The notes below the pieces were generated by a model, which searched no databases, had not been told where the DNA came from, and was given only the letters and a program-made list of their open reading frames with translations. Both the position numbers and the translations under genes were made by a program. Shown here in pieces: positions 7,139 to 10,160 of a stretch of DNA of 10,160 bases (positions are counted from its first letter, which is position 1; each line of letters opens with the position of its first letter). Source of the DNA: Thermoanaerobacterium sp. (GTDB lineage Bacteria; Bacillota; Thermoanaerobacteria; Thermoanaerobacterales; Thermoanaerobacteraceae); the NCBI GenBank assembly GCA_029960905.1, contig JASBVU010000038.1, forward strand, positions 1-10,160. Direction: 5' to 3'.

Positions 7139-8165
<1,027 letters not shown>

Positions 8166-8294: not shown

Positions 8295-8546
8295 TTATTT
8301 GCCTGATTTGTACTTTATTTTAGTAGCATTGCCACCTCTTATATGTCGTTCAGCCTTATTTTTCTCCAGCACTTCTTTAACCTCTTTGTAAAGCTTAGGG
8401 TTTATATTCTCAAGTCTTTCCGTTACATCTTTGTGGACTGTGCTTTTGCTGACACCGAAAACTTTTGCGGCTTCTCTTACAGTCGATTTGTTCTTTATTA
8501 TATATTTTCCTATCTCCAATGTCCTCTCTTCGATATAATCCTTCAA
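8295..8546 (-). CDS. spoIIID: Sporulation transcription factor SpoIIID
   Basis: SpoIIID is a small DNA-binding protein that activates and represses sigma-E-dependent genes in the mother cell. The 83-residue product (from TTG 8546, M-K-D-Y-I-E-E-R-T-L-E-I) matches the family in length and along its whole sequence. A helix-turn-helix spans about 22-42 (STVREAAKVFGVSKSTVHKD), followed by VTERL, the basic KAERHIRGG segment (64-72) and a lysine-rich tail. The open frame extends 25 codons further upstream, but SpoIIID proteins begin at this position, and GGGGG eight bases before the TTG fits a ribosome-binding site, so the TTG start is preferred. It lies between the terminator of the M23 gene and mbl, as in B. 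subtilis where spoIIID precedes mbl. Confidence 0.95.
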   Translation of the reverse strand: MKDYIEERTLEIGKYIIKNKSTVREAAKVFGVSKSTVHKDVTERLENINPKLYKEVKEVLEKNKAERHIRGGNATKIKYKSGK

Positions 8547-8595
8547 TACAAAAACCCCCTTAAGTATAGACCTTTCAATATATTTATATGCGGGG

Positions 8596-8603
8596 ATTGT
8601 ATC
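8596..8603 (-). promoter_or_regulatory. Possible sigma-E-like -10 element for spoIIID
   Basis: On the minus strand GATACAAT differs at one base from the sigma-E -10 consensus CATACAAT and would start transcription about 43 bases before the TTG. I find no convincing sigma-E -35 at 13-15 bases upstream. TTGTCA precedes TACAAT by only 14 bases, too short for sigma-A. The promoter remains tentative. Confidence 0.3.
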
Positions 8604-8631
8604 AATAGAATAAAATGACAAGCTTCAATAC

Positions 8632-8660
8632 AAAAAAATAACAGGGTTTTTCCCTGTTAT
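8632..8660 (-). terminator. Rho-independent terminator of the M23 gene
   Basis: ATAACAGGG (8638-8646) and CCCTGTTAT (8652-8660) make a perfect 9-bp stem around a five-base loop. On the minus strand the stem is followed by seven T residues (complement of 8632-8638). It lies 22 bases after the stop of the M23 gene and isolates it from spoIIID. Confidence 0.9.
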
Positions 8661-8681
8661 CATGATAATAAACGTATTGTT

Positions 8682-9497
8682 TTATTTGTTAAAGTATTGC
8701 ATAGGGTCTATATAATTTCCATCTTTCAATAGCTCAAAGTGAACATGTGGATCTTCGGCAATTTCAAACTTAGCAGTGTTTCCAACTTTTCCTATGACGC
8801 TTCCTTGTTGTACTGCCTGTCCTACTTTTACACTGACGTTGTCGTCAAGATTGCTATAGCGGGTTATATAAGAACCATTTTTTATTTCTACAGTGCTTCC
8901 AAGCCTGCTATCGTCGTACACTTTTGTTACAACGCCGCTCATTGCTGCCACAACATCAGTGCCTAAATCCGCTTTTAAATCAACCCCTTTGTGGGTTGTC
9001 CACTCATCGAGGGTCTTTGAATATGTAAGCTTTGTCACAGCAAACTCCATTACCACATCGCCATTGACTGGTTTTATCAGTGAAAATGTAACATTACTTT
9101 GATTCTTCGTATCCGCACTTGCTGTCGTGATGTTTGACATGGTATTTACAGCGTTATTTGGTTGTGACTTGTTCTCCACTGCCTTCTGTGCTGTATTTGA
9201 TACATCAGTTTTCACGGACGATGCCACACCGGTTGAATTTGCGTTTTCAGCTTTCACCTTATTTTCTTCTTTTACCGTGCTATTATTCTTGGTAGTAGGG
9301 TACTCTGAAGCAGCATTCTTTGTGCTGGAGTCTGTTTTCACAGTGCTTTGTGCAGTACTAAGCTCTGCCATCTTCTTTAAGTTATTGTCTGTAACGTAAA
9401 CAGCAGTTACTGCCACAACAACTATGCACAGAAACAAAATTAAATAGAATCCTTTTCTGTCAAAAAACCTGGCTAAATCGTCTCTATTTATCTTCAC
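8682..9497 (-). CDS. spoIIQ: SpoIIQ-like membrane-anchored M23 (LytM) peptidase-domain protein
   Basis: The 271-residue protein has one N-terminal membrane segment (about 17-35), a long Ser/Thr/Asn/Lys-rich linker (about 45-135) and a C-terminal LytM/M23 domain (about 140-268). Zinc ligands are visible: H169 and D173 in THKGVDLKA, and H253 in HVHFEL with H251. B. subtilis SpoIIQ has lost part of this site, whereas clostridial SpoIIQ can keep it, so this copy resembles the latter and may cleave peptidoglycan. SpoIIQ sits in the forespore membrane and binds SpoIIIAH across the septum during engulfment. The identification rests on architecture and position between spoIID and spoIIID. The GTG start follows AGGAGGTG. 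A sigma-F-like promoter and a hairpin covering the ribosome-binding site lie immediately upstream, and a terminator follows. Confidence 0.8.
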   Translation of the reverse strand: MKINRDDLARFFDRKGFYLILFLCIVVVAVTAVYVTDNNLKKMAELSTAQSTVKTDSSTKNAASEYPTTKNNSTVKEENKVKAENANSTGVASSVKTDVSNTAQKAVENKSQPNNAVNTMSNITTASADTKNQSNVTFSLIKPVNGDVVMEFAVTKLTYSKTLDEWTTHKGVDLKADLGTDVVAAMSGVVTKVYDDSRLGSTVEIKNGSYITRYSNLDDNVSVKVGQAVQQGSVIGKVGNTAKFEIAEDPHVHFELLKDGNYIDPMQYFNK

Positions 9498-9506
9498 AAA
9501 AATTCA

Positions 9507-9555
9507 CCTCCTTTTGGTATTTTAACCAATATAATTTAATTTATACCAAAGGAGG
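9507..9555 (-). repeat. Inverted repeat that can mask the spoIIQ-like gene's Shine-Dalgarno
   Basis: In minus-strand RNA, CCTCCTTTGGTAT (complement of 9543-9555) pairs with ATACCAAAAGGAGG (complement of 9507-9520), giving 13 pairs with one bulged A and a 22-base loop. The 3' arm contains the whole GGAGG ribosome-binding site of the M23 gene, so RNA reading through from spoIID should have it sequestered. No T-run follows the stem directly, which argues against a terminator. Confidence 0.7.
9519..9546 (-). promoter_or_regulatory. Sigma-F/G-like forespore promoter inside the inverted repeat
   Basis: On the minus strand GTATA (9542-9546) and GGTTAAAAT (9519-9527) are separated by 14 bases. They fit the forespore pattern of GYATA and GGnnAnAnT at about 15 bases. 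The start site would be near 9512, just before the GGAGG, so promoter-made RNA would lack the 5' arm of the hairpin. B. subtilis spoIIQ is sigma-F controlled, consistent with this assignment. Confidence 0.55.
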
Positions 9556-9576: not shown

Positions 9577-10160
9577 TTAAGCTTTTTCATTTTTCAGTTT
9601 TAAAAGGTCATCTATTTTCATTATTTCTACACCTGTATAGTAGTGCTTTAATATGTCTTCAAAGTTTTTGCCGTCTTTCGCCATTGCATTCGCACCGTAT
9701 TGGCTCATTCCTACTCCATGTCCATATCCTATCACATTTATCACTACATTGCTTCCTTTCATGCTAAAGCTAAAGTTCGTAGAATTTAGCTGAAACAAAT
9801 CTTGTATGTCTGTTCCTGTAAAGTCTACACCGCCTATGTTTAGCGATAAAACGTGCCCTGCTTCAGTCCTTTTTACGTTTTTTATGTATCCTAATACGTT
9901 TCTTGTGCTTATATTAGCTTTAGGCGCTTTGCTTTTTATGCGGTTTACAAATTCCTCTGATGATACTGTAACAGTCGTCTTAAATTTCTGGGCTACTTCT
10001 TCCCCTGGAGATGGCACACTTTTTAAGTAAGGAAGATTCTCTTTCCACACGTTAATGGCGTCTTCCGTCTCACCACCGCTTATGGCATGGTATGCAGGCT
10101 CTATAAGCGAATCATCGTACACTATCACAAGGCCTTTTGTATCATTCACCGCTTTAACTA
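9577..10160 (-). CDS. spoIID: SpoIID lytic transglycosylase, C-terminal part (runs off the window)
   Basis: SpoIID is a membrane-anchored mother-cell enzyme that cleaves glycan strands during engulfment, acting with SpoIIM and SpoIIP. The window holds the last 193 codons. No start codon is claimed: the frame is open to base 10160, and the GTG at 10147-10149 is internal. Conserved features are AISGGETED (about 10057-10083), the following LPYLKSVPSPGEE, and near the end GYGHGVGMSQYGA (about 9691-9727) with AMAKDG and ILKHYYTGVEI. These match the SpoIID/LytB family, whose members have roughly 300-350 residues, so the N-terminal anchor and the catalytic Glu region lie outside. It lies upstream of the SpoIIQ-like gene, supporting SpoIID rather than the related LytB amidase enhancer. 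Confidence 0.93.
   Translation of the reverse strand, partial: VKAVNDTKGLVIVYDDSLIEPAYHAISGGETEDAINVWKENLPYLKSVPSPGEEVAQKFKTTVTVSSEEFVNRIKSKAPKANISTRNVLGYIKNVKRTEAGHVLSLNIGGVDFTGTDIQDLFQLNSTNFSFSMKGSNVVINVIGYGHGVGMSQYGANAMAKDGKNFEDILKHYYTGVEIMKIDDLLKLKNEKA

Follow-up and report, generated by a model that had tools for sequence, protein, structure and literature searches.

The window analyzed here, a 10,160-nucleotide stretch of Thermoanaerobacterium sp., carries on its minus strand spoIID, spoIIQ, an intrinsic terminator, spoIIID, and an mreB-like gene, in that order. The 3' part of spoIID, cut by the end of the window, lies at 9577 to 10158, and the spoIIID open reading frame (ORF), encoding a mother-cell regulator, lies at 8295 to 8621. 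A profile search of the window places the products of both above the NCBIfam cutoffs (TIGR02870 for SpoIID and TIGR02844 for SpoIIID). The TIGR02844 match begins at residue 27, and the true start of spoIIID is probably later than the first start codon of its ORF. The forespore gene spoIIQ (8682 to 9497, minus strand, GTG start at 9497) encodes an M23 domain protein whose best NCBIfam match is SpoIIQ, with 82.5 of 250 bits; because this score falls far below the cutoff, the name also leans on gene order. The terminator, called by a terminator scan at 8637 to 8661 (minus strand), is located 3' of spoIIQ and sets spoIIID apart.

A 79-base gap separates spoIID from spoIIQ. From the end of spoIID to the first arm of the hairpin described below, a distance of 20 bases, the scan calls no terminator. 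The start of spoIID falls outside the contig, and the count of sigma-E-type promoters was made in relatives from the order, where one lies within about 105 bases of the first spoIID start codon in 14 of 18 loci. The promoter is well kept in L004 to L015, L017, and L020 (e.g., TCATA-N16-CATATACT). At the other end of the cluster, the mreB-like gene (window positions 7139 to 8165, minus strand) is split into two ORFs (7770 to 8165 and 7139 to 7498) separated by an in-frame stop and a frame change. The DNA of relatives aligns straight through the split gene, and a sequencing error is possible, since the assembly consists of 606 contigs.

A hairpin over the spoIIQ ribosome site

In minus-strand RNA, ACCTCCTTTGGTAT (9556 to 9543) pairs with ATACCAAAAGGAGGT (9520 to 9506). 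The hairpin reported in a preliminary description of this DNA is thus present, but its length, given there as 13 bp, is 14 pairs with one bulged base when read directly. An automated repeat search of the window listed no inverted repeat at this site. The 5' arm, which is seen in the sequence, the fold, and the pairing in nine genomes, would act in this structure as an anti-Shine-Dalgarno sequence, and the 3' arm, as already proposed, wholly contains the GGAGG Shine-Dalgarno sequence of spoIIQ (9511 to 9507). A putative sigma-F-type promoter is embedded in the same structure. Its −35 element, GTATA (9546 to 9542), overlaps the 5' arm at its inner end, and its −10 element, GGTTAAAAT (9527 to 9519), lies in the loop and reaches two bases into the 3' arm; the pattern match spans 9519 to 9546 with a spacing of 14 bases. 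These elements match what we take to be the sigma-F promoter pattern, and the −10 is also placed by its position in relatives. Base 9512 is the seventh past the −10 and, from this distance, is the predicted start of the forespore RNA (±~2 bases), in agreement with the start near 9512 suggested earlier. Such an RNA would begin just 5' of the Shine-Dalgarno sequence and would lack the 5' arm.

The pattern GTATA, 13 to 16 bases, GGNNANANT has 42 matches genome-wide and 33 for the reversed control, and the motif alone is therefore weak evidence. The fixed position of the motif before spoIIQ in relatives, 51 of the 55 spoIIQ loci of our first survey set having a candidate promoter of similar geometry, is stronger evidence for a promoter than the motif itself.

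Folding energies were obtained for two transcripts, a long RNA beginning 60 nt 5' of the predicted start and a short one beginning at it. The opening energy, defined as the free-energy cost of exposing the Shine-Dalgarno sequence and the start codon, was 12.3 kcal/mol for the long RNA versus 3.8 kcal/mol for the short RNA at 37°C and 7.7 versus 1.0 kcal/mol at 60°C. The hairpin itself persists at 60°C (−8.9 kcal/mol). When the upstream 60 nt alone were shuffled, the mean opening energy was 5.5 kcal/mol (z = 3.88), and 1 of 300 shuffles was as high as the long RNA; the fold of a 121-nt stretch had a z score of −3.04, which was equalled by 1 of 200 shuffles. By both fold and opening energy, a stable hairpin covers the Shine-Dalgarno sequence in the long RNA.

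Conservation in the genus and order

The SpoIIQ query had a match in all 61 genomes searched, the distant ones possibly being other M23 proteins, and matched at an E value of ≤1e-25 in 23 of the 24 genomes from the order. The hairpin is kept throughout the genus, in nine of nine genomes, including that of Thermoanaerobacterium saccharolyticum NTOU1 (L001). In their alignment, every one of the 126 pair cells is standard, three changed cells being G-U or U-G. The loss of arm pairing in close relatives, which had been named beforehand as an observation that would speak against the proposal, is thus not seen in these nine genomes. The covariation that had also been suggested as a check does not appear within the genus either: 2 of the 14 pairs vary, on one side each, and the alignment of nine genomes contains no two-sided change. 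For the nine outermost columns of the 5' arm, none of which falls in a promoter element, the majority letter has a mean share of 96%, versus 75% for the preceding 30 columns (a gap counting as a letter).

Survey of spoIIQ loci across families

The labels f and g used below are our own designations for families and genera. The first survey set comprised stretches behind spoIID, taken from additional genomes in the phylum: 33 of 60 fetched stretches were kept and were joined with 22 loci from the order to give 55, the other 27 having been dropped because the stretch held no SpoIIQ-like ORF at an E value of ≤1e-5 or no usable start. This set was inspected by eye before testing. Its opening-energy z scores reached 2 in 24 of the 55 genomes; by family, 17 of 22 had a z of ≥1 and 10 of 22 a z of ≥2. 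Control genes, which were other genes with strong Shine-Dalgarno sequences from 20 of the surveyed genomes (152 analyzed of 243 called), reached these levels in 19/152 and 7/152 cases, respectively, in a comparison in which the controls had 60 shuffles and a start at the Shine-Dalgarno sequence and the spoIIQ sets had 300 and 200 shuffles and a start from the promoter. The genomes are not independent, and tests were run on family medians. On this basis, spoIIQ differs from the control genes with a Mann-Whitney P of 2.5e-8, or 3.7e-7 without the order of the window.

Because sigma-F motifs might pair with any spoIIQ ribosome site, a swap test was also run, in which the ribosome site of each genus was placed behind promoter regions of other families. 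Foreign promoters paired less: in the first set, 18 of 33 genera had their own promoter region ranked in the top tenth, and at the genus level Kolmogorov-Smirnov P values ranged from 2.1e-7 to 1.6e-11 over five choices of start and window. The gene spoIIR was tried as a matched sigma-F control and dropped, as too few loci had a promoter by the motif used; a good −35 was present in only 4 of 30 loci, 23 to 45 bases from the Shine-Dalgarno sequence.

A second set of 60 stretches, which was not viewed before testing, was analyzed under rules fixed beforehand. It yielded 32 loci with a SpoIIQ-like ORF and a start; 27 stretches lacked such an ORF at an E value of ≤1e-8, and one lacked a start. The z score was ≥2 in 19 of these 32 genomes and in 11 of the 20 families not seen before (Mann-Whitney P = 2e-7). 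The sigma-F motif was found in 22/32 loci. The swap test was weaker in this set, the own region ranking in the top tenth for 10 of 24 families (Kolmogorov-Smirnov P = 1e-5). Over both sets, spoIIQ behind spoIID had a z of ≥2 in 43 of 87 genomes and a lower value in 44, including families, such as G149, G122, G114, and G037, that fall below 2 despite having no called terminator.

Position of the pairing and diversity of the hairpins

Where a promoter was called (73 genomes), the long RNA loses most openness relative to the short one at −16 to −12 (0.26 to 0.33), followed by −2 to +2 (0.14 to 0.20). Lesser losses of 0.14 to 0.17 occur within the coding region at +10, +18, and +20, and these count against reading the structure as a read-through insulator. 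In the 39 genomes with a z of ≥2, the 5' arm is made up as follows: sequence preceding the −35 contributes 30%, the −35 together with the spacer 41%, the −10 13%, and the stretch from there to the start 16%. Since 71% of the arm mass is thus in or upstream of the spacer, most of the 5' arm would be missing from the forespore RNA whatever its exact start.

The hairpin sequences themselves differ between lineages. In G022, ACCTCCAACA in the sigma-F spacer is opposite TGTTGGAGGT; in G021 and G023, TATTCCACC is opposite GGTGGAATA; and in G013, CCTCC in the spacer is opposite GGAGG. A stem that starts near the promoter covers the Shine-Dalgarno sequence in G070, and in G144, G067, G179, and G108 it is the −10 region, GCATAATGCC (ACATAATGCC in G108), that is opposite the start-codon region. 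Given these differences, what recurs is an arrangement and not a sequence. Covariation was examined in f35, a type in which the start codon is covered by the arm, and in f55 (4 and 5 genomes), and the sole exchange on both sides of a pair, G-C to A-U, was seen by eye in the alignment for G108. In L100 (G162), six T follow the hairpin over the spoIIQ ribosome site, and this putative structure may also be a terminator for read-through RNA.

Relation to spoIID and to terminators

One family, f4, provides a counter-case in which spoIIQ has the sigma-F motif and no spoIID ORF was found within 1.5 kb upstream. In the 7 of its 13 genomes that had loci and were analyzed, z scores ranged from −1.56 to 0.73, and none reached 2. 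This result does not come from the absence of any upstream gene, because a codirectional ORF ends some 300 to 500 bases upstream.

An intrinsic terminator is located in the spoIID-spoIIQ gap in 13 of the 55 first-set genomes. By the criteria of the scan, nine of the 10 g3 genomes and the single g2 genome have one between spoIID and the promoter, and none of these 10 reached a z of 2; G013, the tenth g3 genome, has the hairpin together with a terminator-like stem with a longer loop. In the g3 genomes L016 and L018, spoIID ends ~290 bases further upstream than in the others, and the gap is filled by a repeat-like stretch, similar to one located on the other side of spoIIQ in L025.

In the first set, a z of 2 was reached by 0/13 genomes with a terminator versus 24/42 without, as would be expected if hairpin and terminator were mutually exclusive. 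This strict rule weakened once the second set was added: over both sets, the counts are 3/17 versus 40/70 (Fisher P = 0.006 by genome; family-level P = 0.14) and, with looser terminator rules, 7/23 versus 36/64 (P = 0.05 by genome and 0.08 by family). Replacement of the hairpin by terminators is therefore a tendency and not a rule, and it is not significant at the family level.

Comparison with known systems

In IS10 and IS50, the transposase genes are guarded from outside transcription by read-through RNA that folds back to cover the ribosome site; these cases differ from that of spoIIQ in that the gene belongs to a mobile element and the arm is supplied by the end of the element. The gap terminators of relatives (L012 to L020) act on transcription, unlike the hairpin, which would act on translation, but they probably share its purpose of keeping spoIID transcription out of spoIIQ.

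The nearest parallel within sporulation is sigG (spoIIIG) of Bacillus subtilis, which lies behind spoIIGA-sigE. According to the excerpt available of PMC5942855, which cites Masuda 1988 and Sun 1991, a large hairpin was proposed to block translation of the read-through RNA, and transcripts initiated at the sigG promoter are unable to form it. As described there, that system is like the one proposed here in that a forespore gene follows one that belongs to a different cell type or stage and its own promoter would yield RNA without the hairpin. It is unlike it in the gene, in the upstream neighbor, and in length (at least 20 pairs versus 14 here), and recurrence across families with unrelated sequences is not described in that excerpt. 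We ran the same analysis on sigG in 26 of the 28 genomes in which it was found, and the z score was ≥2 in 7 of the 26. By the opening-energy measure, none of the five Thermoanaerobacterium genomes had the effect, a result that weighs against the insulator reading of the spoIIQ hairpin. In L143, L145, L150, L152, L163, L167, and L169, sigG has a ribosome-site hairpin that uses sequence around the sigma-F-type promoter, like the B. subtilis proposal. In L144, L146, L148, L149, and L153 (Thermoanaerobacterium and g2), approximately CTCCGCAG before the sigG −10 pairs with the early codons CTGCGGAG; this pairing encloses the ribosome site in a large loop, and the start of the coding region is paired instead.

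In phage T4, a stable structure hides the ribosome site of I-TevI and other late genes in the long early or middle RNA only, and a late promoter inside the structure frees the late RNA, as in the arrangement proposed here (excerpt of PMC2988022). The T4 device described in that excerpt separates times of infection and not two cell types, and it uses a late phage promoter and not a sigma-F promoter.

For Clostridioides difficile, the part of PMC3789822 available lists CD0124 to CD0126 (spoIID, spoIIQ, and spoIIID) under sigma-E, sigma-F, and sigma-E, respectively, and a figure legend in PMC4982068 mentions a spoIID-spoIIQ operon. The available text of the latter also places the action of SpoIIQ on the forespore side, opposite the mother-cell protein SpoIIIAH. 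A C. difficile sigF mutant is without SpoIIQ, according to an excerpt of PMC4605598; this fits insulation, although it may have other causes. In the excerpts of open-license literature covered by our search, no report of such a device at spoIIQ was recognized. The mechanism is of a known kind; its use at this gene, at a border between cell types, and over such a breadth of families is new within the literature searched.

Interpretation

The reading that we favor, with a probability of about 0.7, is that the inverted repeat serves as a translational insulator of the forespore gene spoIIQ from mother-cell read-through. RNA from the spoIID promoter in the mother cell would run on into spoIIQ, carrying the 5' arm, and would fold into the hairpin that masks the Shine-Dalgarno sequence; since the ribosome site would be hidden, little SpoIIQ would be made from it. 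In the forespore, sigma-F would start RNA at ~9512, inside the hairpin, and because this start lies past the 5' arm, the ribosome site would be free. The proposal of insulation made in the preliminary description gains support from the comparison of sequences, in which the pairing is kept in the genus and the arrangement recurs above the levels seen with shuffles, other genes, and swapped promoters, and it is the best of the interpretations weighed here.

A hairpin 3' of spoIID might instead end or pause the spoIID RNA, with the masking of the ribosome site being incidental. The true intrinsic terminators that occupy this gap in other genomes and a run of five T downstream of the stem in the window are in keeping with this idea, but the scan calls no terminator here, GAA separates the stem from the T run, and no U run follows the 3' arm in G021, G022, and G144, among others. 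The pairing is also aimed at the Shine-Dalgarno sequence and the start codon, and insulation at the level of transcription is thus unlikely. A role in RNA processing or stability, in which a ribonuclease cuts the hairpin or the hairpin protects the 3' end of the spoIID RNA, is decidedly improbable as the explanation of the repeat, although it is possible as an additional one. Long intercistronic stems in general suit both tasks, but neither would require that the stem cover the ribosome site or start codon or span the sigma-F promoter, as it does in many families.

A DNA operator, bound by a protein controlling the sigma-F promoter irrespective of RNA folding, would likewise be expected to flank a promoter and to be well conserved among the genomes of the genus, as this repeat is. 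The arm sequences are wholly different between lineages, while their complementarity to the ribosome site is kept, and the pairing effect is centered on the Shine-Dalgarno sequence and start codon; both points make an operator very improbable. Least probable of all is coincidence, by which promoter motifs and Shine-Dalgarno sequences happen to pair and common descent accounts for the conservation in the genus. The close relatives do have few changes, none of them two-sided, and the first set was viewed before it was tested. Much less pairing is obtained, however, with shuffles, with the 152 control genes, and with swapped promoters, and the second set, with its fixed rules, repeats the result.

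For the translational insulator as a general feature, we lean slightly toward the view that throughout the phylum endospore formers retain spoIID immediately ahead of spoIIQ, and that unrelated hairpins around the sigma-F promoter evolved many times and silence spoIIQ in mother-cell read-through RNA, with terminators serving in some lineages. In many endospore formers, spoIIQ stands behind a mother-cell gene even though SpoIIQ works from the forespore side. Our survey points to leakage between these sigma regulons as a real problem under selection, which would have been met repeatedly by placing the promoter within a hairpin, and it would extend what has been proposed for sigG to another gene and to many families. 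If this is true, cell-type identity would be guarded at the level of translation, at the border of two developmental regulons.
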